From: Chitinophagaceae bacterium IBVUCB2 | Lineage (GTDB): Bacteria > Bacteroidota > Bacteroidia > Chitinophagales > Chitinophagaceae | NCBI GenBank assembly: GCA_002127295.1 | Contig: NFUV01000001.1 | Location: forward strand, 434,001-498,000 | DNA length: 64,000 bases | Direction: 5' to 3' | In this document: positions 30,644 through 54,289 of the stretch, piece after piece | Position numbering within the stretch: the stretch's first letter is position 1 | Layout of the letters: every line of letters starts with the position of its first letter | The notes under the pieces: generated by a model | Database searches by the model: none | Told to the model about the DNA's origin: nothing | The model's input: only the letters and a program-made list of their open reading frames with translations | Translations under genes and position numbers: made by a program

Positions 30644-30724
30644 TGATAAAACTAATAAAATGTAGTATTTTTCTAATACATTCTATACATTAACCTTTTA
30701 TCCTTATCATACCAACCCTTGTTT

Positions 30725-34753: not shown

Positions 34754-35584
34754 TTACTTTACTTCATACGCTACAACGGTATTTTTCCAAAAGGTAGGAA
34801 CATACAATGTCTTAGTAGCCATATTATACCCGAGGTCTGCTGAATTTATTTTAGCAGCTCTTCCATCTATCAGTATTTGCTTAGAACTATTGGCAGTATT
34901 TACATGATATACTACACCGCCCCATGTAGACACAATAAAATTGTCACCTCCAATATTTTCTATACCATCAGTACCTCCTTCCATTCCATCTACAATCATA
35001 GTTAAGGATTTATCAGCATTCACTTTGTATAAGCCCCCGGCATCCAACACATATAAAATATCTTTATGGAATAACACCCCGTTAGGGCCTTTCAGCTTTT
35101 CGATATGAACTGCAGCCACTCCATTTTGGATACGGAAAAGTTTTTTTTCTTTTGAATCAGAAACATAAATCACCCCGCTGCCATCTATAGAAATATCATT
35201 CAATCCCCCTGCACCCGGCACTTCGATATAGGAAATTATTTTTCCCTGGTGCAGATCAACTACTACTACCTTATCCATATCGGCCACAAATAAGGTATGA
35301 TGAAACAATCCCATCCCTTTTGGCGCATTGAATCCTGTTATCCATTCAGCATTTATTATTTTGCCATCTACTCCTATTTTTCCAATAGAGCCCAGCCCAT
35401 CTTTTCCCCAGGGATCTTTTCCGTCAATATTTGTTATATATAAAACCTGGTGATCGGGGTCAAACAAAACAGATTCAGGTACTTTAAATACAGAATCAGA
35501 TTCCCATTTTTTTACCAATTCAATTTTTTGTGCAATAGTGGTAAACCCAACAGCAAAAAAAAGAATAGAAAAGATATACTTCAT
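34754..35584 (-). CDS. Exported SMP-30/gluconolactonase-like beta-propeller protein
   Basis: A 276-residue protein with a signal peptide (MKYIFSILFFAVGFTTIAQ) and six or so propeller blades (repeats such as GLNDISIDGSGVIYVSD and GPNGVLFHKDILYVLD). The family includes calcium-dependent sugar lactonases and other hydrolases. It is the last gene of the hydroxyproline/arabinofuranosidase operon. An ATG at 35623 overlaps the upstream stop (ATGA), but the ATG at 35584 starts a clean signal peptide and is preferred. In this setting an aldonolactonase role on an arabinose-derived lactone is conceivable, but it is exported and no activity can be assigned from sequence. Confidence 0.75.
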   Translation of the reverse strand: MKYIFSILFFAVGFTTIAQKIELVKKWESDSVFKVPESVLFDPDHQVLYITNIDGKDPWGKDGLGSIGKIGVDGKIINAEWITGFNAPKGMGLFHHTLFVADMDKVVVVDLHQGKIISYIEVPGAGGLNDISIDGSGVIYVSDSKEKKLFRIQNGVAAVHIEKLKGPNGVLFHKDILYVLDAGGLYKVNADKSLTMIVDGMEGGTDGIENIGGDNFIVSTWGGVVYHVNTANSSKQILIDGRAAKINSADLGYNMATKTLYVPTFWKNTVVAYEVK

Positions 35585-35619
35585 AATAGCTAGTTTAATC
35601 TTTTTCAAAGTTACACATC

Positions 35620-36891
35620 TCATGAAAACCTTTCAGGATTAAATGGGATCATATCCATCGATGTGTTTTTTTTATTGATAATTTCATCCACCAATTTACC
35701 TGTTCCCGCACCTAAACTCAATCCCAACATAGAGTGGCCTGTGGCCACCGTCAGGTTCTCATACTTTTTAATTCGTCCGATATAAGGTAATCCATCGGCA
35801 GAGCAGGGACGATAGCCATACCAGATATTTTCTTTTGCAGGCAATGGCACATCGAAATCAGGATAAAAACGTTTCACTGCATCCAGTATTCCTTGCACCC
35901 TGTTCATTCGTGGGGGAGTTTTGTGAGAAGTAATTTCCATGGTTCCGCCAAAGCGAATTTTATTACCATCCATTGGAGTAATAGCTGCTCTACCCTCTAT
36001 CATCACTGCCGGGTAATTTACTTTGTAAGGAGAGTTTTCCAATGTAACTGAATAACCTCTTCCCGGCATCAATGGGATTTTTACATCCAGCAGCTTTGCT
36101 GTTTCTCTTCCCCAGGAACCAGTTGCAATCACCACTTCATCTGTATCAAATGAATTTTTGCTCCCAATACCATTATTTGTAGTAATCACCTTATTAACTT
36201 TCTTGCCTTGCTTTTCAAAACCAACTACTTCTTCATTCGCAATCAATTTGACTCCTTCCTGTTTCAAGTAATTGAGCAGACTTCCCATCAATTTGTTTGG
36301 GAAACAGTGGGCATCACAATTAAACAAGACGGCTCCCTCCCCATTTATTCTTGTTTGTGGTTCCATTGCCTGTAATTCATCTTTGGTTAGCAATTTGGTA
36401 TCCGTCAATCCTAAGGCATGTGCTTTTTCTACCGCATGTCTTGCATGTTCTCCACCAGCTTCTGTTTGAAAAATTTCTAATAAGCCTTTATGTTCATATG
36501 CAAAGTCAAATGCGGGAATGGACAACCACGATTCATATTCCCTCTTACTAAGAATAGCAATATCTCTTAATGGCACAGCAGCAGCTGCTACATGATCTTT
36601 TGTGGCACTGCGAACAAATTTCAATCCCCAGTTGATCAAATTCCAATCCATCCGTGGCTGCACATAAAAGGGGCTTTTTGAATTCCACATCCATTTAAAA
36701 CCCTGCTTTACTATTCCCGGTGTTGCCAATGGTATAAAATGACTGGGGCAGATATAACCACAATTACCATACGAGCAGTTGTCACTAAAATCGCCTTTGT
36801 CTAATACTGCTACATCCCAACCTGATCTTTTTAAATACAATGCAGAACTTAATCCAATGATACCACCTCCGATGATTGTTACTTTAGCCAT
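35620..36891 (-). CDS. FAD-dependent D-amino acid dehydrogenase, probable cis-4-hydroxy-D-proline dehydrogenase
   Basis: A 423-residue flavoprotein of the DadA/DAO family. It has the dinucleotide fold IIGGGIIGLSSALYL at the N-terminus, the SYGNCGYICPSH segment near residue 40 and the late FAD-contact region GYRPCSADGLPYIGR and GHSMLGLSLGAGTG. It should oxidise a D-amino acid to the imine. In an operon with hydroxyproline epimerase the substrate is most likely cis-4-hydroxy-D-proline, giving 1-pyrroline-4-hydroxy-2-carboxylate. The family call is from sequence, the substrate from context. It begins 10 bp after the first GH127-type gene. Confidence 0.88.
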   Translation of the reverse strand: MAKVTIIGGGIIGLSSALYLKRSGWDVAVLDKGDFSDNCSYGNCGYICPSHFIPLATPGIVKQGFKWMWNSKSPFYVQPRMDWNLINWGLKFVRSATKDHVAAAAVPLRDIAILSKREYESWLSIPAFDFAYEHKGLLEIFQTEAGGEHARHAVEKAHALGLTDTKLLTKDELQAMEPQTRINGEGAVLFNCDAHCFPNKLMGSLLNYLKQEGVKLIANEEVVGFEKQGKKVNKVITTNNGIGSKNSFDTDEVVIATGSWGRETAKLLDVKIPLMPGRGYSVTLENSPYKVNYPAVMIEGRAAITPMDGNKIRFGGTMEITSHKTPPRMNRVQGILDAVKRFYPDFDVPLPAKENIWYGYRPCSADGLPYIGRIKKYENLTVATGHSMLGLSLGAGTGKLVDEIINKKNTSMDMIPFNPERFS

Positions 36892-36901
36892 TCTTTACTG
36901 A

Positions 36902-39256
36902 TTATTTTTCTTTTAAAATTCTTACTCCAAAAATTCTTCCAGCTGTTTTACCATGACTCGCATCTATCTTGATAGTTATATAGCTCTTATCTTTTATCAA
37001 TTCCCCAGGCAACACATATTCCTTATTATAAAATTTTCCAGTCACTCCTCCATTCCATTCTTCAGTTAATAATTTTACTCCGTCCACAACAATATCAAAC
37101 TTCCGGTTTTTATCATCCCCAATATAAGTAAGCATTAAAATATTCTTTATACCCGGTATTGTTTTCATTTCAAAAGTAAAATTATTATTGAGTCTTGCTT
37201 CTCTTCCCCGTACTCCCATGGCAGCACTCACATAGCTTTTTTCAGTGGCTACCAATTTATGATCCCGTTCGGGTTGCATCTCTCCCATTCTGAAATTATC
37301 AATTGTCCGCAGTTCCATTTCCTGAGCTGCTTTCTTTTCAGCTTCATATTGTGCCTGGCGGTTAGCCCAATCTGCGTTTGTAAAATAATCCCAATAAACA
37401 CTATAATACTGGTTATACATTTTATAAAAAGGAATCAATGTTACATCCATGGGTTTCCCAACTCCTTTAATGTCGAAGGTCAATGATTGTGATGCAGGTT
37501 TCACCCAATCATTTATGTTTTTATTATCGGTCAACAGAACAGGCGTACCATATACCGGGTCGGGCATTGTTTTACCTAATTGGCCGGCTAAAACTATAGG
37601 ACCATATTTAAAAGCGATCCGGTTAGGGTTATCGGGCATTGCTTCTGTATAAAGGTTCATATCAAATTCAATTTCTATTTGATTTTTTCCTTTTCCTACA
37701 TCAGCGATTGTCAGGTATCCATCTTCACCTGCTTGCAGGTTCAACTTTTGTCCATTCATTCTCACTATCATATTCTTACTCCAAAAAGGCTTCCTGATCT
37801 TTATAATTACAGGGGTTCCTTTTTTATTCTCCACAAGAATTGACACAAGATTACTTTCCGGGAACAGAGTTTCCTGTGTCACTAGCACCCCTTTTTCTTT
37901 CCAGTTTAGTTTAGATGCAATGAAAAGATTGACATATAAAAGAGCCTTCCCATCATGACTATAGATCTGTTCTCCATATTTAGCATGATTCTCTATACCA
38001 CTGCCCACACAACAGGTAAATGTGCGGAACGAATCGCTGAACTGCTTTTGTGTTCCCATTCTTAGTGGTACGAAATAGGTCATCATCCCATTTTCAGGAT
38101 TCTGAGAGGCCAGAATATGATTATACAAAGCTCTTTCATAATAATCACCCATTTGTCCAGAAGGATTCCAGGCAAATAAATGCCTGGTCAGCTTCAACAT
38201 ATTATAAGTGTTGCAGGTTTCGCAGGTAGCATCACTTAAACGTTCGCTCAACGAGTCTTGTGCGCCACAGTATTCATAATTACTATTTCCACCAATGACA
38301 TAGCTATGATGATTTACCATTGTTTCCCAAAAAAAAGAAGCAATTATTTTATCTGTTTCAGCACCTGTCACTTCATATCTTCTAGCAGCACCGATCACTT
38401 TAGGCACATTCGTGTTGCTATGTTTGCCCGGCATCGGGTCTATTTGTTTGGAAAGAGTTCCCATAACAAACTCATCATGAAATTTTTTTGATAACTGTAA
38501 ATATTTTTCATTACCCGTGATCGAATAAATATTTACCAATGCCTCGTTCATTCCTCCGTACTCACAATTCAACATTCTTAATCGCTGTTCTTCTGTCAAT
38601 CCATTTACAATAGTACCCGTCCAGTCTGCAATACCTACTGAAATATCAACTGCCATTTTATTATCACAATATAAATAGGCATCCAATAAACCCGCAAGTA
38701 CTTTATGTAATGTGTACCAGGGCACCCAGCCACCATTCAGATCAAACCCGGCTGTTCTTATTTCTCCACGAGCCACCTGTGCAAAAATGGTATCTTCATT
38801 GGGTACCGCACCTACATATCCTGTTTTTCTTGCAACCTGGCAGCGCCTTAGTTCTTTTACGATATAATCAACTCTTTTTTTGAATTCCAAATTACCCGTG
38901 CTGGCATACATCATTGCGCAAGCAGAAAGATAATGCCCTAATGTATGTCCTGATATTCCGTCTTTTTCCCAACCTCCATAAATAGAATCCTTCACCGGCA
39001 GTCCCGCATGCTTATAAAAACGATATAACAACCTGTCGGGTTTGATCGTTAACAAATAGCCACTGTCTAAGTTCATGGCATGTCGAAATGGGCCGTTTAA
39101 TAATTTAACGTCCCTTAGATTAAATGAATAAGCTTTGACAGGAATAACCGGCTTAACCTTTACTTTTGAAAAATTGTATTCAGGCACATAGGACTGTGCA
39201 ATACCTGCTAACAGCGAAAAGCAAAAACATAACAACAGTAAATTTTTCTTTTGCAT
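36902..39256 (-). CDS. Exported beta-L-arabinofuranosidase-like glycosidase, GH127/GH146 superfamily (DUF1680)
   Basis: A 784-residue protein with a signal peptide (cleavage near GIAQS). The (alpha/alpha)6 barrel (about residues 45-440) carries the zinc-cysteine active site of the family: CETC at 345-348 and the CC pair at 415-416, corresponding to Glu338, Cys340, Cys417 and Cys418 of Bifidobacterium HypBA1, where the second-motif cysteine is the nucleophile. Beta-sandwich domains follow, with a C-terminal domain of about 130 residues (from near 650) lacking in plain GH127 enzymes; this length and tail suggest GH146. It would release beta-L-arabinofuranose. It starts 2 bp after the other GH127 gene. 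Confidence 0.85.
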   Translation of the reverse strand: MQKKNLLLLCFCFSLLAGIAQSYVPEYNFSKVKVKPVIPVKAYSFNLRDVKLLNGPFRHAMNLDSGYLLTIKPDRLLYRFYKHAGLPVKDSIYGGWEKDGISGHTLGHYLSACAMMYASTGNLEFKKRVDYIVKELRRCQVARKTGYVGAVPNEDTIFAQVARGEIRTAGFDLNGGWVPWYTLHKVLAGLLDAYLYCDNKMAVDISVGIADWTGTIVNGLTEEQRLRMLNCEYGGMNEALVNIYSITGNEKYLQLSKKFHDEFVMGTLSKQIDPMPGKHSNTNVPKVIGAARRYEVTGAETDKIIASFFWETMVNHHSYVIGGNSNYEYCGAQDSLSERLSDATCETCNTYNMLKLTRHLFAWNPSGQMGDYYERALYNHILASQNPENGMMTYFVPLRMGTQKQFSDSFRTFTCCVGSGIENHAKYGEQIYSHDGKALLYVNLFIASKLNWKEKGVLVTQETLFPESNLVSILVENKKGTPVIIKIRKPFWSKNMIVRMNGQKLNLQAGEDGYLTIADVGKGKNQIEIEFDMNLYTEAMPDNPNRIAFKYGPIVLAGQLGKTMPDPVYGTPVLLTDNKNINDWVKPASQSLTFDIKGVGKPMDVTLIPFYKMYNQYYSVYWDYFTNADWANRQAQYEAEKKAAQEMELRTIDNFRMGEMQPERDHKLVATEKSYVSAAMGVRGREARLNNNFTFEMKTIPGIKNILMLTYIGDDKNRKFDIVVDGVKLLTEEWNGGVTGKFYNKEYVLPGELIKDKSYITIKIDASHGKTAGRIFGVRILKEK

Positions 39257-39258
39257 GC

Positions 39259-41226
39259 TTAGTAATTAATTTTTACGTCTTTAATTTTTACTGGTAGCCA
39301 CAACTGCATTTCATTTTTGCCCCGGTTAGCCCAGGTATAATATGGAATAGCAGTAATAAGTTTTTTCTCCGTCTTTACATCATCACCTGCTTCATTGACT
39401 GAAATAACGGGGAGTTCGGCTTGCAATGCCACTACCTGTTCGTTCAACACTTTGTAAGGAACAGGAGTAAATTTTATGTTAGCAGGCACCACAATATTCC
39501 ATGCCTTTCCATTATTATCGGCTCCTTCTATACAATACACCAGCGGACCCCGTTGAATAGCAACTCGTCCGTTATTCTGTTTTAGTGAATCTTTTGCTTC
39601 GATTCGTTTTACTTCCATCGGAAAATCAAACTCTACTACATCCCCTTTTTTCCATTCGCTATCAATCACTGCATATCCATTTTCATAAACACTCTTAACA
39701 GCTTTTCCATTTACTATAATGTTAAGATTGGTTGAACCTTCAGCAACAGACCCAGAAGAATAGAGATCACCGGGTACAATGTTATTATTGAACCAACCCG
39801 GAACCCGGATGTGTAATTTGAATTTTCCTTTCTTAGCAGGATCAATATTCAATTTTACTTTTCCATCCAATGGGTAATTGGTTTCCATTTTTACTGCCAC
39901 TTCATTTTTCCCTACAATCATTACCGCATCACTACCTACAAATAGGTTGATCAAAATCGCATTATCATTTTTTGCATAGATATAATCGCCTAAAGAAACG
40001 ACCAATCTTGCAATATTAGCAGGACAACAGGCTGTACCAAACCATTCTCTCCTGTAATGTTGTCCTCTGGAAGCTAATGGATTACCATAGAAAAAACGAT
40101 CACCACTTAAACTCAATCCATCTAATGCGCCATTATATAAACTTCTTTCCAGCACATCTATATATTTACTATCACCAGTTAAAGCATTCATCCGCTGATT
40201 CCAAAATACCATCCCTACACTGGCACAGGTTTCGCAATAGGCCTGTTCGTTGGGCAAATCATAATCTACACTAAATCCTTCATTGCTTCCTGCTGATCCA
40301 ATGCCACCGGTGATATACATATTCCGGTGCACTACATCTTCCCAAACTGTTTTCATTGCTTTCATATAACCTTCATCACCCGTATAGGCTGCCACATCTG
40401 CTGCGCCGGTGTACATATACATGGCCCGCACCGCATGACCCGTAATTTGTGTTTGCTCTTTCACCGGCAACAGATCTTGTGCATACGCTGTGTCTTTCCA
40501 ATCTGTCCAGGTATAACCTTTTGCATAGCGATGACCTCTCTCACTTAATAACCAATCAGCCAGTTTCAGGTATTTTTGATCGTTGGTTGCTTTATACAAT
40601 TTTACCAATGCCAGTTCCAATTCCTGGTGACCAGTTACCCAATGTTTTTTACCCGGACCAAACAATGCATCAAAATGATCGGCCCATTTAATAGCCACAT
40701 CTAATAATTTTCTTTTGCCGGTAGCATTATAATAAGCAACCGCTGCTTCGATCATATGGCCGCAATTGTAATCCTCATGCATACTCATATCTGTGTATCG
40801 CTTCTCCGGCTCATTGAGTGTATATAAAGTATTCAGATAACCATCGGGCTGCTGTGCAGCAGCAATCTTATCGATCCAATCATCACATTTCTTTTCCATG
40901 GCCGGGCTAGGATTATTTTTTAGAGAATAGGCCATTGCTTCCAAAGCTTTGAAAACATCGCTGTCATCATAAAAAATTCCTTCATGTTTTTCACCTTGCT
41001 TACGGGCTACTTTTTCAAAATTGCGAAGCCTGGGTGTCTTTGTTTCGGTTTGATATATACAAGCTTCCAGCGTTTTAGTTGCTACATTATCAATTTTAGG
41101 TTCCCAGAAATTATCGGTGATATTTACTTTAGAAAAACTAACAAACTCAAATTTTTGTAAGGGAGTTTGAGCAAACAGTGTAATACTTAAGAATAGTGTA
41201 CTAAGAATATAGAATGCTTTTTTCAT
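39259..41226 (-). CDS. Exported beta-L-arabinofuranosidase, GH127 (HypBA1-like)
   Basis: A 655-residue enzyme with signal peptide (cleavage after LFAQ). The alpha-barrel domain (about 25-420) shows the whole HypBA1 active site at matching spacing: E316 (acid/base, equivalent to E322), E332 and C334 (E338, C340) and C400-C401 (C417, C418) in EWFGTACC. The DYDLPNEQAYCETC segment is highly conserved in the family. A beta-sandwich C-terminal half follows. HypBA1 releases L-arabinose from Hyp-linked beta-L-arabinofuranosides of plant extensins; the operon context with hydroxyproline genes fits the same role here. Confidence 0.9.
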   Translation of the reverse strand: MKKAFYILSTLFLSITLFAQTPLQKFEFVSFSKVNITDNFWEPKIDNVATKTLEACIYQTETKTPRLRNFEKVARKQGEKHEGIFYDDSDVFKALEAMAYSLKNNPSPAMEKKCDDWIDKIAAAQQPDGYLNTLYTLNEPEKRYTDMSMHEDYNCGHMIEAAVAYYNATGKRKLLDVAIKWADHFDALFGPGKKHWVTGHQELELALVKLYKATNDQKYLKLADWLLSERGHRYAKGYTWTDWKDTAYAQDLLPVKEQTQITGHAVRAMYMYTGAADVAAYTGDEGYMKAMKTVWEDVVHRNMYITGGIGSAGSNEGFSVDYDLPNEQAYCETCASVGMVFWNQRMNALTGDSKYIDVLERSLYNGALDGLSLSGDRFFYGNPLASRGQHYRREWFGTACCPANIARLVVSLGDYIYAKNDNAILINLFVGSDAVMIVGKNEVAVKMETNYPLDGKVKLNIDPAKKGKFKLHIRVPGWFNNNIVPGDLYSSGSVAEGSTNLNIIVNGKAVKSVYENGYAVIDSEWKKGDVVEFDFPMEVKRIEAKDSLKQNNGRVAIQRGPLVYCIEGADNNGKAWNIVVPANIKFTPVPYKVLNEQVVALQAELPVISVNEAGDDVKTEKKLITAIPYYTWANRGKNEMQLWLPVKIKDVKINY

Positions 41227-41304
41227 GCTGTGTTTTATAAGCTATGGTTTCAATCTTCAACTTCGTCACTTTTAATTTCAACATCAACTACTTTCACTTT
41301 GCTA

Positions 41305-42648
41305 TTACAACTTTGGTATTTTATACCCGTTGTGATAGATTGTTGCCAGGTATTTCTTATTAATCTTTTCATCTGTAAATCTGCCAGAATTCTTATCCCA
41401 ATATAATTTATCCCCGGACCGAAAAGCAATATTTCCCATTTGGCTCAACGCTGCAATATGTGAAGCCGATTCGATCGGGCATTTCAACTCTGCCAATTTT
41501 CTTGAACGAATTACACTCACAAAATTTTCCATGTGCTTATCCAATCCATTATCAACCTTTACTTTTCTTTCCACTTTTATTTTATTAGCACTACGACCTT
41601 CTTCAATTACTTCCCAACCACTTCTATCCAGTTGAAGTGTGCCATTATCGCCAATAAAAGCAATGCCATGTTCTTTGTTGAACAACCCATTTTGAATCCC
41701 TAATGCATGATCCCACACCAAATTGAATTTATCGAATTCGTACATAGTGCATAAAGTGTCAGGTGTTTCCTGTGGAGAAGATAGATCAGCAAAATTTCCA
41801 CCCATCGCACTGATAGTTTTAGGAACAGTGGCCTTCATTCCAAGCAATGCATAATCTAATAAATGAACTCCCCAATCTGTCATCAAGCCACCTGCATAAT
41901 CCCAAAACCAACGGAATGTAAAATGAAACCGATTTGCATTAAAAGGTCGTTTTTTAGCGGGACCAAGCCATCTGTCATAATCTACACCGGCAGGCACTGC
42001 CGAATCAGCAACAAAAGGAATTGGCTTTTTCCAGCCGAGGTAGCACCACACTTTTACAGTTCGGATATTTCCCAATTTGCCCGAGTGAGCAAAATCTATT
42101 GCATCCATAAAATGCTGTTGACTTCTTTGCCACTGTCCGGCTTGCACTACTCTATTGTATTTTTTTTGTGCGGCAATCATCACATTACATTCAGTAATGG
42201 AATTACCAACTGGCTTTTCAACATATACATCTTTCCCTGCCTGGCAGGCATCTACCATTTGCAGGCAATGCCAATGGTCAGGTGTGCCGATAATAACAGC
42301 ATCCACAACTTTCATATCAAGCAAGCCCCGATGATCTTTGAAGGTTTTAATTTTCGAAACATCAATATTCATCTTTGACAATTCAGCAAGTCGCTTATCA
42401 ATTACGTTTTTATCAATATCACAAATAGCAACAAGATTTACACCCGGTATTTTTAATATCGCCAGCAAATTCGACCAACCCATTCCGTTCACCCCAATCA
42501 CTCCCACATTTACCTGGTCAGATGGTGCCATTTTACTTCGAAAAATAGCAAATACATCATTGCTGAATGACGATGCTAAAATGCCACCAGCAGCAAGTGC
42601 TGATGCCTGGTAAATAAATTTTTTTCTGGAGGACATAAAATTGTTCAT
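41305..42648 (-). CDS. Exported Gfo/Idh/MocA-family oxidoreductase
   Basis: A 447-residue NAD(P)-dependent oxidoreductase. The N-terminus has a Tat-like signal in the RK form (SRKKFIYQASALAAGG) followed by a hydrophobic stretch, as in many exported Bacteroidota members. The Rossmann core GVIGVNGMG, then ICDIDKN, TPDHWH and the family hallmark EKPVG are present. The C-terminal substrate domain contains WFWDYAGGLMTDWGVHLLD. Members act on sugars and sugar acids. It lies between hypE and the GH127 genes. Sequence does not give the substrate; an arabinose or arabinoside-derived sugar is the contextual guess. Confidence 0.85.
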   Translation of the reverse strand: MNNFMSSRKKFIYQASALAAGGILASSFSNDVFAIFRSKMAPSDQVNVGVIGVNGMGWSNLLAILKIPGVNLVAICDIDKNVIDKRLAELSKMNIDVSKIKTFKDHRGLLDMKVVDAVIIGTPDHWHCLQMVDACQAGKDVYVEKPVGNSITECNVMIAAQKKYNRVVQAGQWQRSQQHFMDAIDFAHSGKLGNIRTVKVWCYLGWKKPIPFVADSAVPAGVDYDRWLGPAKKRPFNANRFHFTFRWFWDYAGGLMTDWGVHLLDYALLGMKATVPKTISAMGGNFADLSSPQETPDTLCTMYEFDKFNLVWDHALGIQNGLFNKEHGIAFIGDNGTLQLDRSGWEVIEEGRSANKIKVERKVKVDNGLDKHMENFVSVIRSRKLAELKCPIESASHIAALSQMGNIAFRSGDKLYWDKNSGRFTDEKINKKYLATIYHNGYKIPKL

Positions 42649-42679
42649 TTAGTGAGACATATTCATCATTCACAATTAA

Positions 42680-43681
42680 CTAAATTACCTGGAACCCATA
42701 CGCATAAGGGTCATCATCTGTATCAATCCAGATAGTATTGTATCCATACACTTTTGCCCAGCCTTCTACAGATGGTCGAATTGCAGGTTTGCCAGCTACT
42801 GTCAACTCCTCTTCAATTCTGCCTATGAATTTGCTACCAATGATACTTTCATGAATAAACTCATCACCTTTCTTCAATTTTCCTTTGGCATACCATTGCG
42901 CCATTCTTGCTGATGTTCCTGTTCCGCAAGGTGAACGATCAATTGCTTTATCTCCATAGAATACTGCATTTCTTGCCGTAGAACCTTCATCCAGCACTGC
43001 ACCTGTCCACAAAATATGTGAACACCCATTTATTGTCGCATCATCTGGGTGAACAAATTCATATTTAGCATTAATATTTTTCCGCAGCTGTCTTGCCCAT
43101 GCAATTAATTTATCTGCAGGATAATGTTCTAATCCCATAAATTTTTTCTGCACATCCACTATTGCATAAAAATTTCCGCCATAAGAAACATCGATCACCA
43201 ATTCTCCCAAATCCGGGCAATCAACCACTAACTCTGTTGAATGTAAATATGCAGGCACATTTGTTAGTTTAACACTTTTTACTTTTGAATCTTGCATTTC
43301 GTAATTGATCATCACCAATCCTGCCGGAGCTTCCATCCTTACCACGCCGGTAATTTTTGGCTGTATTAATCCTTGTTCAATTGCAATGGTAATGGTGCCA
43401 ATAGTTCCATGACCGCACATGGGAAGGCAACCACTGGTTTCAATAAATAAGACGGCCACATCGTTTTGCGGATCATGCGGTGCATAAAGAATGCTGCCGC
43501 TCATCATATCATGTCCCCTCGGTTCAAACATCAGCCCGGTTCTTATCCAGTCATACTCCCGGAGAAAATGTTGCCGCTTTTCACTCATATTTTTTCCTTC
43601 TAAAAGGGGGCCTCCTTCTTTTACTAACCGAACGGGGTTACCACAGGTATGAGCATCAATGCAATTAAATAGGTGCTTCAT
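42680..43681 (-). CDS. hypE: 4-hydroxyproline 2-epimerase
   Basis: A 333-residue enzyme of the proline racemase superfamily that converts trans-4-hydroxy-L-proline to cis-4-hydroxy-D-proline. Both catalytic cysteines are present: C89 in LPMCGHGTIG and C252 in DRSPCGTGTSA. The Cys/Cys pair separates epimerases and racemases from 3-hydroxyproline dehydratases (Thr in the second site). Epimerase rather than proline racemase is favoured by the accompanying D-hydroxyproline pathway genes. It is the first gene of a six-gene minus-strand operon and divergent from the sterol-desaturase-like gene, 35 bp apart. Confidence 0.92.
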   Translation of the reverse strand: MKHLFNCIDAHTCGNPVRLVKEGGPLLEGKNMSEKRQHFLREYDWIRTGLMFEPRGHDMMSGSILYAPHDPQNDVAVLFIETSGCLPMCGHGTIGTITIAIEQGLIQPKITGVVRMEAPAGLVMINYEMQDSKVKSVKLTNVPAYLHSTELVVDCPDLGELVIDVSYGGNFYAIVDVQKKFMGLEHYPADKLIAWARQLRKNINAKYEFVHPDDATINGCSHILWTGAVLDEGSTARNAVFYGDKAIDRSPCGTGTSARMAQWYAKGKLKKGDEFIHESIIGSKFIGRIEEELTVAGKPAIRPSVEGWAKVYGYNTIWIDTDDDPYAYGFQVI

Positions 43682-43716
43682 TCAATTTTTGTAAATTCGT
43701 AATATATTGCTTGCAA

Positions 43717-44991: not shown

Positions 44992-45188
44992 TAATTTTTT
45001 AGCCCGGCTGACTACTACTATCATCGTTTGTTGCGTCGCACTCTTGTACGTTCTAATCACTATTCAGCATGCTGGAAGTTTCCCTTCTCGTTTTATGGGT
45101 TTGTGGTCACTAATATACACTTACCAATTTGTTGAAAACCTGTTCACAATTGCACCTCCCTAATACCCAAGCCCGCAGGCGAATATTC
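44992..45188. other. Intergenic region with a distinctive GC-richer segment
   Basis: No gene is seen in this interval. It contains a sharply different stretch at about 45003-45080, including TTGTTGCGTCGCACTCTTGT and a perfect 10-base palindrome CAGCATGCTG at 45065-45074. It reads like a dispersed repeat or structured RNA rather than ordinary spacer, but I could not confirm copies elsewhere in the window. Confidence 0.3.
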
Positions 45189-45196
45189 TACTTTTG
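45189..45196 (+). promoter_or_regulatory. -7 promoter element of the TPR/Ppx-like gene
   Basis: TACTTTTG followed by TC is a full TAnnTTTG match 49 bp before the start codon. No -33 TTG is at the usual distance. Confidence 0.45.
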
Positions 45197-45245
45197 TCTA
45201 TAAGTCTCAACACCTCGTTTTATTGTGTTAATTCAATCTTCAAGT

Positions 45246-46655: not shown

Positions 46656-46673
46656 ATAAATTTACCTATAAAA

Positions 46674-47276
46674 CTAACCTTGCTTACGCAGGTATTTTGT
46701 AAGTATTACGATTTGTTGTCCCTCAACCCTGCCTTCAATCTGTTCAGTGTTATCGGGTACTAAGCGAATATTTCGCACTACCGTTCCAACCTTCGCATTG
46801 ATGGTAGAGCCTTTTACATCTAGTGATTTAGTAAGGACCACCGCATCCCCATTTTGCAGGATCGCACCGTAACAATCTTTATGCAAATCAACTGTACTGT
46901 CATTTTCATGATCGCCGCTGGCCTTGGCCCAGGCAAGTCTTTCCTCATCGAGGTACAACATATCAATACTTTCTGCAGCCCAGCTTTCATTACGTAAGCG
47001 GTTCAGCATTCGCCAGGCCATTACTTGTACAGCCGGCACTTCACTCCACATACTGGTAGTAAGACATTGCCAATGATTATTATCCAGCTCTTTTTTCTTT
47101 TCAATTTGTGCTAAACATTTCGGGCAAATCAATACGGCATCATCCATATTGCCGGTGGCAGGTGGCACTTCATATACTTTCAAATTTTCTGTGGCCTCGC
47201 ATAGTTCGCATTGGTTGCCACTTCGTTGAACTAATAAATCTTCTTGTTTCATAATCGAAAAATCTTTGGCAGACAT
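46674..47276 (-). CDS. PhnA-domain protein
   Basis: A 200-residue protein with an N-terminal zinc ribbon (CELC and CPKC about 30 residues apart), a helical middle and a C-terminal PhnA/YjdM-type beta domain (DCYGAILQNGDAVVLTKSLDVKG). Despite the family name, a role in phosphonate use is not demonstrated. Its first ATG directly follows the stop of the aldehyde dehydrogenase gene, which suggests co-transcription; a second ATG eight codons in (MKQEDLLVQRSG) may be the real start. Why it travels with the hydroxyproline genes is unclear. Confidence 0.8.
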   Translation of the reverse strand: MSAKDFSIMKQEDLLVQRSGNQCELCEATENLKVYEVPPATGNMDDAVLICPKCLAQIEKKKELDNNHWQCLTTSMWSEVPAVQVMAWRMLNRLRNESWAAESIDMLYLDEERLAWAKASGDHENDSTVDLHKDCYGAILQNGDAVVLTKSLDVKGSTINAKVGTVVRNIRLVPDNTEQIEGRVEGQQIVILTKYLRKQG

Positions 47277-48761
47277 TTATTTCAATACTTCTTTCGTCAT
47301 CTCACTATTCACTGTTCTCCAAATCCCTAAAGGATTTTCATTCTTTAACTCATCCGGTAATAATTCATTGGCCCAGTTTTGAAAAGCAATAGGTCTTGCA
47401 AATCTTTTTATCCCATCTGCACCAACAGATGTAAACCTGGAATCCGTTGTTGCAGGAAAGGGTCCGCCATGGTGCATACTTAAACAAACTTCCACTCCCG
47501 TAGGCACACTGTTTAGGATTAAACGGCCGCAAATATTTTTTACAGCATCGACTATTTTTTCATGAATCTGTATGTCACCATCAGTTGCCATTAATGTAAC
47601 TGTAAGTTGCCCCTCAAGTTTATTGGCCACCTGCAGCATCTCTTTCATATCCTTGCAACGAACTACTAATGAATATGGACCAAATACTTCCTGGTGCAAT
47701 ACAGGATTGCTTAAAAATACTTGCCCGCTTGTAGATGCAATGGTCGGGCTTCCCTGGTTCAATTCAGGTTTTGTTTCGCTGAATGCAACCGTATCAACTC
47801 CTTTTTGTGAAAGGGCATGATCTTTTTTCTTCCTGTAATTTTTAAAAATGCCGGGGTGTAACATAGTGCCGGGAGCAATTTTGGTGATTTCTTTTCCTAA
47901 CTCTTCAATAAAAGCATTTAACTCTTTACCATCAAGACCAATGATGATACCAGGATTGGTACAAAATTGTCCTACACCCAATGTGATAGAACCTGCATAC
48001 ATTTTAGCAATTGCTTTTGCATCAGTTTTCATTTTCTCCGGCAACAAAAAAACCGGGTTAACACTTCCCATTTCTGCAAAAACAGGAATGGGTTCTTTAC
48101 GTTGATTCCCCCAATCGAATAATTGTTTGCCCCCATTATAAGATCCTGTAAACCCAACTGCTTTTGTATACGTATGCGTTACTAATGCTTTACCAACTTC
48201 CACACTTGCGCCATGTATATGTGCAAAAATCCCATCGGGCATATTACAATCTGCCGCAGCTTTTATAATGGCTTTTGCCACCATCTCACTTGTTTGTGCA
48301 TGTGCAGGATGTGCTTTTACAACAACCGGGCAGCCGGCAGCAAATGCACAAGCCGTATCCCCACCTGCTGTAGAATAAGCAAAGGGGAAATTGCTTGCGC
48401 CAAAAACAACAACCGGCCCTAATGGAACAAGCATTTTCCTGATGTCTGGTTTTGGTGGTGCTTTATCTGGAATGGCCGTATCTATTCTTGCTTCCAGCCA
48501 CTCTCCTTTTTCGCATGCATCCGCATATTGATTTAATTGAAAAATTGTGCGACCTCTTTCACCCCGCAATCTTGCTTCAGGTAAATTGGTTTCTTCTCCG
48601 GCAACTTTTAATAGCTCATCGCCGCAGGCTTCTAATTCTTTCGCAATGGCCCGCATAAAATCTGCCCGTTGTTTTAATGATAATTTCCGGTAAGCATAAA
48701 ATGCTTTCCAGGCCTGTTGCATGGTATTTTCTATTTCAGTAGATGTTGCGTCGTTAAACAT
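47277..48761 (-). CDS. 2,5-dioxovalerate (2-oxoglutarate semialdehyde) dehydrogenase
   Basis: A 494-residue NAD(P)-dependent aldehyde dehydrogenase. Catalytic residues are N124 (GASNFPF), E230 (FAEMGSVNP) and C267 (GVGQFCTNPG); the last motif is typical of the 2-oxoglutarate semialdehyde dehydrogenase branch. It would oxidise 2-oxoglutarate semialdehyde to 2-oxoglutarate, the last step of hydroxyproline, and also of oxidative L-arabinose, breakdown. It follows the DapA-family gene by 21 bp. The family call is firm and the substrate follows from motif plus context. Confidence 0.9.
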   Translation of the reverse strand: MFNDATSTEIENTMQQAWKAFYAYRKLSLKQRADFMRAIAKELEACGDELLKVAGEETNLPEARLRGERGRTIFQLNQYADACEKGEWLEARIDTAIPDKAPPKPDIRKMLVPLGPVVVFGASNFPFAYSTAGGDTACAFAAGCPVVVKAHPAHAQTSEMVAKAIIKAAADCNMPDGIFAHIHGASVEVGKALVTHTYTKAVGFTGSYNGGKQLFDWGNQRKEPIPVFAEMGSVNPVFLLPEKMKTDAKAIAKMYAGSITLGVGQFCTNPGIIIGLDGKELNAFIEELGKEITKIAPGTMLHPGIFKNYRKKKDHALSQKGVDTVAFSETKPELNQGSPTIASTSGQVFLSNPVLHQEVFGPYSLVVRCKDMKEMLQVANKLEGQLTVTLMATDGDIQIHEKIVDAVKNICGRLILNSVPTGVEVCLSMHHGGPFPATTDSRFTSVGADGIKRFARPIAFQNWANELLPDELKNENPLGIWRTVNSEMTKEVLK

Positions 48762-48782
48762 GGAAGTATAAATTTTATAGAA

Positions 48783-49685
48783 TTACAGAGATGGCCTTGC
48801 AGCAATGCCGTCGTTAATTGTTTTTAAAACAGATTTGCGTTCTTCGCCTTCTAATATTAATCTTGGAGCTCTAACATATTCGCTGCCTATACCCGCCTGT
48901 GCCTCTGCTAATTTTATATACTGTACCAGCTTTGGATGGATGTCTAATTCCAGCAATGGCATGAACCATCGATAGATTTTCGTGGCTTCTGCGATTTTGC
49001 CTTGCTTCACCAAATTGAAAATGGTAACGGTTTCTTTGGGGAAAGCACAAACCAATCCCGCTACCCAACCATCAGCACCTAACACTAATTCTTCCATTGC
49101 TAAGGTATCTACACCACATAATATTTTATAACGATCTCCAAAACGGTTTCTCATTCTTGTAACATTGGTCACATCCCTGGTACTTTCTTTTACCGCTCCA
49201 ATATTTTTATTGCTTTGCAAATCATCAAACATATCCAGTGTTACCTCAATTTTATAATCAACCGGGTTGTTATAGATCATAACCGGCAGATCTGTTGAAT
49301 CAGCAATTGTTTTAAAATATGTCACTGTTTCCCGATGATCGGTTTTATAACGCATAGGCGGTAACAACATCAAGCCCTGGGCTCCCCATTGTTTGGCTAA
49401 TGCTGCCTGGTGTACGGCTTCCTTGGTAGAACCTTCAGCAATATTTATAACTACCGGAACTTTACCTGCGATTTTTTCGATTGCAAATTTGACCAGTGTT
49501 TCTTTTTCATTGGTCGTCAGTACACTGGCTTCACCTAAGGTGCCCCCAAGGATTACTCCATGAATACCGGCCTCCAGCTGAGCTTTTAAATTCTTTTCAA
49601 ATAATGGTAAATCCAACTCATCTGTAGCAGTAAATTTTGTAGTAAGTGCGGGCATAACACCCTCCCATTGAAATGACATATTCAT
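48783..49685 (-). CDS. DapA-family lyase, probable 1-pyrroline-4-hydroxy-2-carboxylate deaminase
   Basis: A 300-residue TIM-barrel class I aldolase-type enzyme. The Schiff-base lysine is K166 (GAVKESTRD), the tyrosine of the triad is Y138 (MIYNNPVDY), and the substrate loop GGTLGE is near residue 47. In hydroxyproline catabolism the family member deaminates 1-pyrroline-4-hydroxy-2-carboxylate to 2-oxoglutarate semialdehyde, and that is the best fit here. Related enzymes dehydrate 2-keto-3-deoxy-L-arabonate to the same product, so either or both substrates are possible. It is the first gene of the minus-strand trio, 212 bp from the divergent subtilisin gene. Confidence 0.85.
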   Translation of the reverse strand: MNMSFQWEGVMPALTTKFTATDELDLPLFEKNLKAQLEAGIHGVILGGTLGEASVLTTNEKETLVKFAIEKIAGKVPVVINIAEGSTKEAVHQAALAKQWGAQGLMLLPPMRYKTDHRETVTYFKTIADSTDLPVMIYNNPVDYKIEVTLDMFDDLQSNKNIGAVKESTRDVTNVTRMRNRFGDRYKILCGVDTLAMEELVLGADGWVAGLVCAFPKETVTIFNLVKQGKIAEATKIYRWFMPLLELDIHPKLVQYIKLAEAQAGIGSEYVRAPRLILEGEERKSVLKTINDGIAARPSL

Positions 49686-49897
49686 TGATTTTAAAGTTGA
49701 TAGGAACGTTTTACGCTTTTAAGATTATTATACTAAAAGGTAAAACAAAAAGAGCTTAAAGGTAAGGCATCATCACCGTTTATCCACAAGACATGACAAA
49801 CGGTTGACTGATCTGGCAAAGGGTGCTTTTGTACGGGAAATAATCATTAATTTTCAATTTCGAAATTTAATTTGCCTTCATATTAAATCAACTGCAA

Positions 49898-52800
49898 ATG
49901 AGACCATTTTCTACCCGGCTAACAAAATTATTGTTCCTGATTTTTTTACCTGGGTTTGTTTTTGCCCAGTCGCTGAGAGATTATTCCCTTCAGCTTACTT
50001 CAGGGAAATACCTGCCTCCGGAAAACAGGAACACTGTCACCAAACAATCGCCAGTATTTGAACAAAGTATCTATGGTGGAAAACACTATGTTACTATTCA
50101 ATTTACAGCAATACCTGATGAGTCAACAAAAAACAGGCTTCGTTATGCGGGGATTGAGTTAATAGATTACATTCCCAACTTTGCATACACTGCTACTATG
50201 GTGGAGAATTTTGATCTTAATACCCTCAAAGAATTTCCTATTCGTAGTATACTTCAGTTTTCATTTATCCAAAAAACAGTGCCGGAAATTATAACTGCCA
50301 AAATTCCGGCTTATGCAATTAAAAGTGCGGGCTATGTTGATGTTGACATTGTATTATATGAAAACCTTTCTAGTGATAAAATAATCAATTCTATAAATGC
50401 TGTTGGCGCTAGTATAATTGCGAATGTGCCTTCATTTAGAATGTACACCATCAGGGTACCGGAATCAAACCTACATCAATTGGTTAATCTGCCATTTGTA
50501 CAATGGGCAGAATACATTGCACCACCAAGTATTATTGAAAATCTCCCTGGTCGTTCTTTACATCGTGCAAACATTTTGAGTGATGGTGTACGTAATTTAA
50601 AAGGAGATGACATGAATGTAGGAGTATGGGATGAAATAGCGAGTCAGCACCTTGACTTTTCTCCATCAGGAAGATTGGTAAATGTTGATGCGGGTGGAGC
50701 CGGAAGCCACGGAACCCACGTATCAGGCACAATTGGAGGAAGAGGTCTTATTGATCCGGCTGCAAGAGGTATGGCTCCGAATGCAAAAATTTATTCGTTT
50801 TTAGCAGCTGGCGATATTCAAGCAGAAATGGCAGTAGAAATTCCTGCCAAAAATTTAATAGCAAGCAACCACTCTTACCACGATGGCACTGGAGTACAGT
50901 GTGGCACAGGTGGGGCTTCTGCATCCTATTCTTTGAGAGCAAGAAATACTGATCTTAACTTAAACAATAACATTTTTCATCTGCATTGCCACTCATCAGG
51001 TAATAATCAACCTGCTTGCTCGGGAGGATGGGGCACAATTACTGGTACTGGTAAATCTGCCAAAAACAATGTAGTTGTCGGGAATATTACTTCAACTGAA
51101 TCGCTTTCCGGTTCTAGTAGCTGCGGACCTGTACATGACGGAAGAATTAAACCAGAGTTGGTTGGAATGGGCACTAATGTATATTCTACTTATACACCAT
51201 TAAACTCATATAATACAATTAGTGGAACGTCGATGTCAACCCCAGGTATTGCAGGAACATTGACTCTTTTAGCCCAACAATACAAAGATTCACATGGAGG
51301 TACACTTCCACCATCTTCTTTAATAAAGAATATTGCATGTAACACGGCTGCGGATCTTGGAAATCCCGGACCTGATTATAGATTTGGATTTGGTCGTATC
51401 AATGCATTGTCCGCTGTTAGAATACTTGAACAAAATCGGTATGCTGTTAATAGTATTGCAACGGGTGCAACTACCGATATTACTATTACTGTGCCGGCAG
51501 GTGCTTCAAGTCTTCGTGTAATGCTTACCTGGAATGATCCTGCTGCTGCGCCAAACTCAAGTTTTGCACTTATAAATAATTTAGATTTAAGAGTTATTGG
51601 AAGTGCTACTCATCTACCGTGGATTTTAGATCCTAATAATCCATCAGCAAGTGCTACACAAGGTGATGACAACTATAGTAATATTGAACAAGTTACTGTA
51701 TCATCGCCTGCGCCAGGAACCTATACCCTTAGAGTAATAGGAGAAGCTATCACGACCGGACCGACACAAACCTATTCATTGAGCTGGGATATTGAACAAC
51801 CATATATTGAAGTAATTTATCCCAATGGCGGTGAGAAATTTAATCCCTCAACTTCTCAGGTAATTACCTGGGATAATGCAGGGATTACCGGAAACCAAAC
51901 TGTGGAATACTCTTTAGACAATGGTGGTACATGGAATATTATCAGCAGTTCAGTTCCATCATTTACAACCAGACTTTCATGGACTCCTCCAGCAGGAACT
52001 AATACAGGTATTGCTTTAATCAGAGTTTCCAGTGGTTCTTTAAGTGATAATAGCAATGCAAATTTTAGTATTCTTGGAACTCCCGCACTTAATGCACCTG
52101 CAGTCGGATGTACAGGCGGGGAAGTAGCTTATACATGGCCTGCTGTTGCCAATGCTACACAATATGATTTATATAGATTAGATGCAGCTACTGGCGATTT
52201 CGTGATACTTGCATCTGATATCATGGGGACTTCGTACACAGCTACGAGCTTACCCGTTGGCTCTACAATATGGGCATCCTTAGTATCCAAAAACAACACT
52301 ACCGGTGCTGTAAGTGAAAGATCAATTGCAAGGTCAATGGTAGTACCTTCCAGCGGTGCAACATTGGGAAGCATTGGCTCAGTTTCCGGCCAGTCAAGTG
52401 TTTGTGGCAATCTCCAAAATGTTCAATATACGGTTCCCGTAGTAACGGGTGCTACATCTTATACATGGACAACGCCACCTAATACAACTATTGCAAGCGG
52501 ACAGGGAACAAATACAATTTTAGTTAACTTTTTTGCTGGTAGCAGTAGTGGCAACGTTACTGTGTTTGCAAGTGCTGGTTCATGTCAAACAGCTACAACC
52601 ACTTTCCCTGTTACATTCAGCAGCGAAGTAACTCCTCCTGTAAGTGGAGGTGATCAAACAAGCAATATATGTCCTCCAACACCAATACCAACATTAACAG
52701 CAACTGCAACTATACCTGCCGGGCATACCTTAACATGGTTTACAGCTGCAACAGGAGGAAGCGTAGTAGCAAATCCAACATTAAGCTCCCCTGGTACAGT

Positions 52801-54289
52801 TACCTATTATGCATCCAGCTCTAACAATACTAGCGGTTGTGTTAGTGCCACAAGAACTCCGGTTACATTAACTATAAATGCAGTGTCTGGAGCAAGCATT
52901 ACCGCAGGCGGACCACTTACATTTTGCCAGGGAGGAAGTGTTGTACTTACCGCTACTGCAGGTACATCTTATATATGGAGAAATGGTGCAACACAAGTCG
53001 CCACTACACAAGCTTATACGGCTACTACTTCTGGCTCATATACAGTTGAAGTAACAACAGGTTCTTGCGTTAATACGTCTACCGCTACAAATGTTACCGT
53101 TAACCCATCACCTGTCGCGGCAATTACTGCCGGTGGGCCAACTACGTTTTGCCAGGGCTTAAATGTTGTTCTTACTGCATCTGCGGGTTCATCCTGGTTG
53201 TGGAGTAATGGCGCAACTACACAAAGCATTACTGTTACTACTTCAGGAAATTATTCTGTCGTAGTTACCAACGCTTCTAATTGCAGTACTACATCTCCTG
53301 TTACAGCTGTTATAGTTAATCCTAACCCTGCAGCAGTAATTACTGCCAGCGGGCCTATAACTTTCTGCCAGGGAGGAAGTGTTATACTTACTGCTAATAC
53401 AGGCAATTCATATTTATGGAGTACGGGTGCAACAACGCAATCAATTACAGTTTCAACATCAGGAAATTATAGTGTTGATGTTACTCAAACCGGTGGCTGC
53501 GTATCATCTTCAGTGGCAACAGCTGTGGTTGTAAATCCATTACCGGCAGCTACAATTACAGCCGGGGGTCCATTAGCATTTTGTAACGGAAATAATGTTG
53601 TATTGACAGCTCCGGCTGGTGGTACATGGATATGGAGAAATGGAACAACACAAGTTGCCACTACGCAATCGTATACTGCTACTACTACCGGCACCTACAG
53701 TGTACAAGTAACAACAGCCGCTGGTTGTTCCAGTACCTCGGCGGTTACCAATGTTGCTGTAAGCCCTAACCCGGTTGCAACGCTGGTTGCGGCTCCTTAT
53801 ACTAAATTGTTCCCGGGTCTAAAAACAACCCTTACTGCTACTGTGAATCCAACCGGAACATATACTTACAGTTGGTTAAGAAATGGTACGGCCGTACCGG
53901 GCGCAACAACTGCTACTATTCCAAATATCGATTTGAATGGTTTAGGCACTTACACAGTAACTGTAACAAACACTACAGGCTTACCATGTTCTAATACATC
54001 CAATTCAGTAGTAATTGCAGATTCGGTAAGTGCTAAATTGTTTGTGTATCCAAATCCATCTAAAGGAGCATTCCAGGTACAATTCTATACTACTAACACA
54101 TCTGCACATACAGTTTCCATTTTTGATTCAAAAGGCAGCGTTGTGTATAGAAAAGAATACAACCTTAGTGTTCCTTACCAGCAAATGGATGTAGATATCA
54201 GAAGACACGGAGCTGGTGTGTACCAGGTGGTATTGCATGACAGAGCAGGAAAGCGACTGGCTTTTAAACAAATAGTAGTCGCTCAATAA
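49898..54289 (+). CDS. Large secreted subtilisin-like (S8) protease with T9SS sorting domain
   Basis: A 1463-residue secreted protease. Domains in order: signal peptide (to about residue 24); an N-terminal propeptide region; the S8 catalytic domain (about 235-515) with D245 (VGVWDE), H271 (SHGTHVSG) and S445 (SGTSMSTPG), and the oxyanion Asn near 369; a jelly-roll P-like domain (about 520-635); two beta domains including a fibronectin-like one; four 72-75 residue Ig-like repeats (1001-1293); another Ig-like repeat; and a T9SS type A sorting domain (about 1378-1463, LFVYPNPSKGAF to the terminal FKQIVVAQ). It should be cell-surface or released. It is divergent from dapA-like and hydroxyproline genes, so a hydroxyproline-rich protein substrate is a contextual guess. 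Confidence 0.93.
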   Translation: MRPFSTRLTKLLFLIFLPGFVFAQSLRDYSLQLTSGKYLPPENRNTVTKQSPVFEQSIYGGKHYVTIQFTAIPDESTKNRLRYAGIELIDYIPNFAYTATMVENFDLNTLKEFPIRSILQFSFIQKTVPEIITAKIPAYAIKSAGYVDVDIVLYENLSSDKIINSINAVGASIIANVPSFRMYTIRVPESNLHQLVNLPFVQWAEYIAPPSIIENLPGRSLHRANILSDGVRNLKGDDMNVGVWDEIASQHLDFSPSGRLVNVDAGGAGSHGTHVSGTIGGRGLIDPAARGMAPNAKIYSFLAAGDIQAEMAVEIPAKNLIASNHSYHDGTGVQCGTGGASASYSLRARNTDLNLNNNIFHLHCHSSGNNQPACSGGWGTITGTGKSAKNNVVVGNITSTESLSGSSSCGPVHDGRIKPELVGMGTNVYSTYTPLNSYNTISGTSMSTPGIAGTLTLLAQQYKDSHGGTLPPSSLIKNIACNTAADLGNPGPDYRFGFGRINALSAVRILEQNRYAVNSIATGATTDITITVPAGASSLRVMLTWNDPAAAPNSSFALINNLDLRVIGSATHLPWILDPNNPSASATQGDDNYSNIEQVTVSSPAPGTYTLRVIGEAITTGPTQTYSLSWDIEQPYIEVIYPNGGEKFNPSTSQVITWDNAGITGNQTVEYSLDNGGTWNIISSSVPSFTTRLSWTPPAGTNTGIALIRVSSGSLSDNSNANFSILGTPALNAPAVGCTGGEVAYTWPAVANATQYDLYRLDAATGDFVILASDIMGTSYTATSLPVGSTIWASLVSKNNTTGAVSERSIARSMVVPSSGATLGSIGSVSGQSSVCGNLQNVQYTVPVVTGATSYTWTTPPNTTIASGQGTNTILVNFFAGSSSGNVTVFASAGSCQTATTTFPVTFSSEVTPPVSGGDQTSNICPPTPIPTLTATATIPAGHTLTWFTAATGGSVVANPTLSSPGTVTYYASSSNNTSGCVSATRTPVTLTINAVSGASITAGGPLTFCQGGSVVLTATAGTSYIWRNGATQVATTQAYTATTSGSYTVEVTTGSCVNTSTATNVTVNPSPVAAITAGGPTTFCQGLNVVLTASAGSSWLWSNGATTQSITVTTSGNYSVVVTNASNCSTTSPVTAVIVNPNPAAVITASGPITFCQGGSVILTANTGNSYLWSTGATTQSITVSTSGNYSVDVTQTGGCVSSSVATAVVVNPLPAATITAGGPLAFCNGNNVVLTAPAGGTWIWRNGTTQVATTQSYTATTTGTYSVQVTTAAGCSSTSAVTNVAVSPNPVATLVAAPYTKLFPGLKTTLTATVNPTGTYTYSWLRNGTAVPGATTATIPNIDLNGLGTYTVTVTNTTGLPCSNTSNSVVIADSVSAKLFVYPNPSKGAFQVQFYTTNTSAHTVSIFDSKGSVVYRKEYNLSVPYQQMDVDIRRHGAGVYQVVLHDRAGKRLAFKQIVVAQ
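52898..53770 (+). repeat. Four tandem coding repeats of 216-225 bp in the protease gene
   Basis: Units begin at 52898, 53123, 53339 and 53555 and each encodes an Ig-like domain starting ITAGGP and FCQGG (varied), with a tryptophan core and a closing VNPxP. They differ by many substitutions, so they are old duplications. They act as stalk or spacer and are a possible recombination site. Confidence 0.85.

Follow-up and report, generated by a model that had tools for sequence, protein, structure and literature searches.

A two-operon locus in a Chitinophagaceae bacterium links hydroxyproline catabolism to predicted GH127 and GH146 beta-L-arabinofuranosidases

We analyzed a window of 64,000 nucleotides (positions 434001-498000 of contig C1 in the 4.0 Mb genome of Chitinophagaceae bacterium IBVUCB2) with two minus-strand operons that combine genes for the catabolism of trans-4-hydroxy-L-proline with genes for two glycosidases. 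The list of open reading frames (ORFs) and the Pfam and NCBIfam families agree with an earlier, sequence-only reading that placed six genes in the first operon (43681 to 34754). These encode the 4-hydroxyproline 2-epimerase HypE (42680..43681), a Gfo/Idh/MocA-type oxidoreductase (41305..42648), a GH127 protein (39259..41226), a GH146-type protein (36902..39256), a DadA-like FAD dehydrogenase (35620..36891) and an SMP-30/NHL-like protein (34754..35623). According to the ORF coordinates, the intergenic gaps are 31, 78, 2, 10 and -4 bases, and the shared strand and short gaps are consistent with a single transcript. The second operon (49685 to 46674), whose DapA-family lyase and aldehyde dehydrogenase had also been recognized, contains a DHDPS-family gene (48783..49685; PF00701, 196 bits), an aldehyde dehydrogenase gene (47277..48761; PF00171, 152.8 bits) and, 3' of the latter, a gene for a YjdM/PhnA-domain protein (46674..47276; PF03831, 85.7 bits). 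The YjdM/PhnA-domain gene also has this neighbor in locus L069 and is probably a passenger. A promoter and terminator scan was uninformative, with 42 promoter-like sites versus 54.6 in shuffles and 19 terminator-like sites versus 14.0. The span up to 54289 given in the sequence-only reading also covers a plus-strand subtilase (49898-54289, divergent from the DHDPS-family gene, with Ig/PKD-like repeats and a type IX secretion tail) without sign of locus membership.

The catabolic genes correspond to the established bacterial pathway, which, in the relevant sections of Zhao et al. (2014, PMC4113996), consists of a 4-hydroxyproline epimerase (4HypE), a cis-4-hydroxy-D-proline oxidase, a DHDPS-family deaminase and a 2-oxoglutarate semialdehyde dehydrogenase (KGSADH). 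HypE (PF05544, 422.4 bits) clears the NCBIfam model for 4-hydroxyproline epimerase (NF010578, 585.5 bits versus a cut-off of 376) and has the Cys/Cys pair of 4HypE (C89, C252). The other three families are encoded nearby, but no NCBIfam cut-off was reached among the matches listed. The DadA-like protein (PF01266, DAO, 223.2 bits; top NCBIfam matches to D-amino acid dehydrogenases, below cut-off) is a predicted cis-4-hydroxy-D-proline dehydrogenase, the DHDPS-family protein a predicted 1-pyrroline-4-hydroxy-2-carboxylate deaminase, and the aldehyde dehydrogenase (PDB relatives 3v4c and 1eyy) a predicted KGSADH. The DHDPS-family and aldehyde dehydrogenase genes are linked to HypE at many loci. 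We also considered a lysine enzyme for the gene at 48783..49685, which is unlikely because the only other DHDPS gene of the genome (C2:697618, presumably dapA) scores higher with the family model. Family membership and the conserved DapA-KGSADH-HypE-DadA core thus strongly support that trans-4-hydroxy-L-proline catabolism is encoded here. As the sequence-only reading had proposed, all steps to 2-oxoglutarate appear to be present, with functions assigned by family.

Both glycosidase-like proteins contain the GH127 catalytic and middle Pfam domains, and both open with hydrophobic leaders (read by eye), so that export is predicted. The best solved relatives of the GH127 protein (PF07944, PF20736, PF20737) are 6ex6, 4qjy and HypBA1 (3wkw). 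Its residues E316, E332, C334, C400 and C401 (hand-counted numbering) occupy the acid/base, zinc and nucleophile places of HypBA1, which we take to be E322, E338, C340, C417 and C418. In the 3wkw alignment (numbering by hand), H150, Y153, H200 and R267 align with H142, Y145, H194 and R273 of HypBA1, which are named as its substrate site in the section of PMC10850190 on this enzyme. All four substrate-site residues, as well as the catalytic and zinc residues, are therefore kept. The other protein (PF07944, PF20736, DUF4986, DUF6805) matches 5opj with 498.2 bits and GH127 structures with at most 63.5 bits, which marks it as GH146-type; it has a Cys3-Glu site (E346, C348, C415, C416). By sequence, both proteins are predicted beta-L-arabinofuranosidases. 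An assignment of the pair as aceric acid hydrolases was rejected (NF049879, 445.7 and 77.7 bits versus a cut-off of 950). A third GH127-family gene of the genome lies on contig C2.

In order to see how often hypE and such glycosidases are neighbors, as the sequence-only reading had suggested doing, we surveyed 147 genomes of the family. Pro_racemase was found in 72 and PF07944 in 87 of them. Together with the window, 73 fetched hypE stretches gave 74 loci (a weak Pro_racemase match, G145:C211 with 22.7 bits, was left out). The true number of hypE genes is slightly lower, because a single split gene of G035 has probably been counted twice (L082 and L084), and L081, at 35% identity, is a distant paralogue. 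At 24 of the 74 loci, in genomes from 20 genera, the run of genes that follows hypE on its strand (allowing gaps of at most 500 bases) includes GH127 or GH146. Anywhere in the stretch, such a gene was present at 30 of 74, including L027 with a weak GH127 match (~130 bits). Among the 54 runs that include DadA, 20 have GH127/GH146 between HypE and DadA. The order HypE-GH127-GH146-DadA-SMP30 is repeated in L052 and L067 and, with one extra gene, in L048 and L053. Based on chance alone, one would expect about 0.41 of 72 genomes to have a glycosidase within 8 kb (maximum 6 in 200,000 simulations), in a model with rounded genome sizes and PF07944 counts that may be low, since at most 12 candidates were scored per genome. 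Per genome, PF07944 was found in 61 of 72 with hypE versus 26 of 75 others (Fisher p 6e-10, kinship uncorrected). One locus counted as unlinked, L176, has a GH146 gene followed by a piece of DadA near a contig end, and L056 of the same genome stops after GH127 at a contig end; the two may be halves of one operon. The recurrence of the linkage strongly supports a coupling of GH127/146 to the hydroxyproline catabolic core in this family.

The linkage also extends beyond the family. Pro_racemase was found in 94 of 296 genomes of the phylum (79 over the cut-off), and the best-scoring 60 further hypE loci were analyzed (59 from other families, one from the window's genus; HypE was not labelled by the ORF step in 5 of the 60). 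Five had GH127/146 matches (L101, L115, L123, L129 and L134, the last two weak with 384-387 bits), and the common form was the DapA-KGSADH-HypE-DadA core without glycosidases. Genome contigs were also scanned for the GH127 clade. Among the best 80 loci, 27 have at least one hydroxyproline-catabolic gene within 10 kb (HypE in 20, HypE and DadA in 17); among these 80, the named relative closest by GH127 is a Chitinophagaceae metagenome-assembled genome (77% identity). Strain-named genomes account for 13 of the 80, and all 11 that were searched had Pro_racemase over the cut-off; in 8 of the 11, HypE is 69-80% identical to that of the window.

Only Gfo is missing from the gene set of Lacibacter luteus TTM-7 (L191). 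In Sabulibacter ruber (L245), genes for SusC, SusD, GH146, GH127, an SNF symporter, an M1 peptidase and DPPIV are found with a divergent AraC gene and DapA-KGSADH-HypE-DadA, the HypE and DadA genes sitting just past the end of the stretch. Gene sizes and model matches indicate the same order in Rufibacter psychrotolerans (L255; SusD, SNF and M1 putative), again with HypE and DadA past the end. Two further stretches (L196, L219) have a DadA-like gene directly after GH127, and HypE was not found in them. L152 (G007, no Pro_racemase match in the genome) has consecutive genes for KGSADH, an amino-acid permease, a long GH127 and aminopeptidase P.

Trees were built with 40 chosen stretches among the PF07944 matches listed as unlinked members. 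They omit proteins of at most 450 residues or with low scores, including the linked L031 and one piece of L047, and label L152 as unlinked, yet it adjoins KGSADH. Of 19 linked proteins in the GH127 tree (50 rows), 16 fall in one clade of 27 (support 100/100). In the GH146 tree (38 rows), a group of 22 unites all 13 linked proteins with 8 unlinked members and 1 near one, at a support of 90/79 that is below star level; the genome's own third paralogue lies outside this group. The HypE tree has 95 rows, with 25 of the 60 further loci among them. Mapping the label "with glycosidase" onto this tree takes 21 changes, compared to a mean of 24.3 for shuffled labels (32 of 500 shuffles were as low). 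At least four changes are forced by well supported branches, and contig ends explain part of the changes. The label changes suggest that the pairing was repeatedly made or lost.

Some clusters contain additional genes. Pfam identified GH51 (L039, L217), an alpha-galactosidase-like protein (L058), GH95, GtaA-type and GH2-like TIM-barrel proteins, aldose epimerase and an AraC regulator; amino-acid permease, aminopeptidase P, DPPIV, DUF885, SNF symporter and M1 peptidase genes also occur. Alpha-galactosidase-like and GtaA-type proteins were each found in 3 of 24 runs with GH127/146 versus 0 of 50 without, and GH2-like proteins in 5 of 24 versus 1 of 50 (all small numbers). The GH2-like protein of 350 residues (L047:6353-7411 and relatives) is present at six family loci; in five cases, its gene lies between GH127 and DadA. 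Extensin bears hydroxyproline arabinosides and serine-linked galactose, to which the glycosidases would be suited. SusC/SusD models matched none of the 24 glycosidase-bearing hypE runs, including that of the window, and both are present in L245.

Together, these observations lead us to propose, with a probability of roughly 65%, that the two operons form a utilization locus for the hydroxyproline O-arabinosides of plant hydroxyproline-rich glycoproteins. In a first step, suggested by family, active-site residues and linkage, the exported GH127 and GH146 cysteine glycosidases would take beta-L-arabinofuranose off hydroxyproline residues or hydroxyproline peptides. Peptidases would then cut the bared chain, and hydroxyproline would be imported; genes for peptidases and transporters are found in the clusters of some relatives, and neither operon of the window contains one, the divergent subtilase next to the second operon being a possible exception. 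For the steps that follow, functions were assigned by family after the pathway described in PMC4113996, as far as its text sets it out. HypE would convert trans-4-hydroxy-L-proline to cis-4-hydroxy-D-proline, the DadA-like enzyme would oxidize it, the DHDPS-family enzyme would deaminate the resulting pyrroline to 2-oxoglutarate semialdehyde, and the aldehyde dehydrogenase would produce 2-oxoglutarate. The L-arabinose set free could enter metabolism via the genome's araA (contig C2). Since the glycosidases would both release sugar and expose hydroxyproline, the amino acid would be unlocked as well. Arabinose stripping followed by hydroxyproline use was already the core of the sequence-only reading. 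Its catabolic half is well founded, and the link to GH127/146 is backed by recurrence (24/74, 5/60 and 27 of the best 80 loci). The extensin-type substrate, as against another beta-L-arabinofuranoside, is what we infer as the best fit.

Several observations weigh against this proposal. The GH127 and GH146 families also act on other beta-L-arabinofuranosides, and the nearest solved GH127 structure is 6ex6, ahead of HypBA1; we take 6ex6 to be the arabinogalactan enzyme BT3674. By our criteria, such a glycosidase is missing at 50 of the 74 loci of the family and at 55 of the 60 further ones (several loci are truncated at contig ends), as it is around the core in a genome of the window's own genus (G257, L145), at least within the stretch. 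Conversely, 53 of the best 80 GH127-clade loci have no hydroxyproline-catabolic gene within 10 kb. The GH127 clade also has 11 unlinked members, six of them from genomes without detected hypE (L155, L162, L164, L167, L168 and L170), so that a clade exclusive to hypE genomes was rejected. Genes expected for digestion and uptake are not concentrated next to the glycosidases: in runs with versus without GH127/146, aminopeptidase P was found in 2/24 versus 2/50, the permease in 3/24 versus 3/50, DPPIV in 0/24 versus 1/50 and DUF885 in 0/24 versus 7/50, with GH51 at 2/24 versus 2/50 (again small numbers). Peptidases look like a general trait of hydroxyproline loci. Finally, the Gfo/Idh and SMP-30 genes are unexplained by the proposed route.

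Much of this would also fit a general hydroxyproline operon that serves free hydroxyproline, collagen or any other source, with GH127/GH146 recruited for other beta-L-arabinofuranosides, such as arabinogalactan-protein side chains or arabinan, and with a common plant inducer rather than a common substrate. The frequency of the core without glycosidases, the GH127 clade, which is also present in hypE-lacking genomes and mostly unlinked among the best 80 loci, and the lack of peptidase enrichment all favor it. So does the nearest PDB structure of the GH146-type protein, 5opj, which we take to be BT0349. BT0349 sits in a rhamnogalacturonan-I locus according to the passage of PMC10850190 that mentions it. 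In favor of our main proposal, the same paper states that a Xanthomonas GH146 enzyme hydrolyzes mainly Araf-beta-Hyp. A general operon does not readily account for the many genera in which GH127/146 genes are inserted between HypE and DadA, much more often than chance would give, nor for Sabulibacter ruber, which clusters SusC/SusD, both glycosidases, an amino-acid-type symporter and two peptidase genes with the hydroxyproline genes. We consider it unlikely, though a serious competitor to hydroxyproline O-arabinoside utilization.

The two unexplained genes could point to an oxidative L-arabinose route. The Gfo/Idh protein (PF01408, PF19051, i.e., GFO_IDH_MocA with a C2-type C-terminal domain; nearest PDB structure 8tdf) has a Tat-like N-terminus by eye. 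The earlier SMP-30 call holds in so far as there is an SGL-like match, and this match is weak (24 bits versus a cut-off of 26.3; nearest PDB structure 22gu, CJ1041C). A Weimberg-type pathway fits the gene families Gfo/Idh, SMP-30, DHDPS-family and aldehyde dehydrogenase. They would act as arabinose dehydrogenase, as lactonase and, after a dehydratase, as DHDPS-family enzyme and shared aldehyde dehydrogenase, and arabinose would join hydroxyproline at 2-oxoglutarate semialdehyde. L-arabinose 1-dehydrogenase structures are indeed among the weak PDB matches of the Gfo/Idh protein, and two of the three IlvD/EDD genes of the genome are on contig C2, as are araA and the third GH127-family gene. Neither operon contains a dehydratase, however, and all three IlvD/EDD genes lie outside the window; the Gfo/Idh and SMP-30 proteins both look exported (by eye), and the genome has araA. 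Moreover, both genes also accompany hypE in genomes in which PF07944 had no match (G091 at L069, G086 at L072) and are thus not tied to glycosidases. This route is therefore highly improbable. Gfo/Idh directly follows HypE also in L069, L076, L190, L194 and L197; at L190, a Lactamase_B_2-fold protein (L190:9013-9990) comes next, and ORFs of like size are found there in L194 and L197. That the arrangement is a chance neighborhood, for which nothing but the wide spread of PF07944 in the family speaks, has a practically negligible probability, given 24 of 74 loci versus ~0.41 genomes expected and the like gene order in several genera.

Other genes border the locus. A BshC gene (bacillithiol synthesis, 33092-34693, minus strand) comes after the six-gene operon; in 18 loci, BshC-type genes are found close to hypE and in the same orientation. 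On the upstream side, about 29 bases separate HypE from the divergent ORF of a fatty acid hydroxylase-family membrane protein (43711-44991, plus strand); the corresponding cluster is opposite in strand to hypE in 22 of 74 loci, and the hydroxylase-family gene is probably a passenger. Caspase-like motifs (GHGD, DACRS) were read by eye in a protein encoded at 30719-32920 (plus strand).

Each half of the proposed system has known counterparts. All four enzyme families of the window are common to it and to the bacterial pathway of PMC4113996, here in two neighboring operons. The window differs in having glycosidase genes between HypE and DadA, and the main text of that paper does not mention "glycos-", "arabino-", Pedobacter or Chitinophaga. 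The HypBA1-HypBA2-HypAA system of Bifidobacterium longum and Xanthomonas euvesicatoria degrades hydroxyproline arabinosides and likewise employs GH127 and GH146 beta-L-arabinofuranosidases for the arabinosides of hydroxyproline-rich glycoproteins, in the relevant sections of PMC6085000 and PMC10850190; a broken prolyl oligopeptidase gene adjoins xehypAA (PMC6085000). These accounts, in the portions concerned, cover arabinose release (neither "epimerase" nor "catabol" appears in PMC6085000), whereas the window operon adds hydroxyproline catabolism. For Latescibacteria, a similar degradation of hydroxyproline-rich glycoproteins, with GH127 attack on extensin, was proposed in silico from genome-wide inference, with no hydroxyproline catabolic linkage described in the corresponding section (PMC4454575). 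Bacteroidota polysaccharide utilization loci resemble the window in clustering sugar-stripping enzymes with catabolism, and the Sabulibacter ruber version even has SusC/SusD; the window operons lack SusC/SusD, and their linked pathway is one of amino acid catabolism. The author of the sequence-only reading knew of no such linkage, and no description of a hypE-GH127/146 linkage was found in the open-licence literature searched.

Extensins, abundant plant wall proteins with arabinosylated hydroxyprolines, are regarded as resistant to degradation. Enzymes that remove arabinose and pathways that burn hydroxyproline are each known, and the surveyed loci suggest that many bacteria couple both in one cluster. 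The pairing is retained in a good part of the relatives, and this suggests that these plant glycoproteins are used in a dedicated way. Tentatively, and at slightly less than an even chance, such clusters would be widespread glycoprotein utilization loci of Bacteroidota, distinct from polysaccharide loci, in which deglycosylation of hydroxyproline O-arabinosides (GH127, GH146, at times GH51 and alpha-galactosidase), digestion of the proline-rich chain (DPPIV, aminopeptidase P or M1 in some) and burning of hydroxyproline make extensins a source of carbon and nitrogen. If this is true, the loci would offer a source of hydroxyproline-active glycosidases, a context for unnamed cluster genes (350-residue GH2-like, GtaA-type, Gfo/Idh and SMP-30 proteins) and a directly testable route by which the carbon and nitrogen of plant glycoproteins could be turned over.

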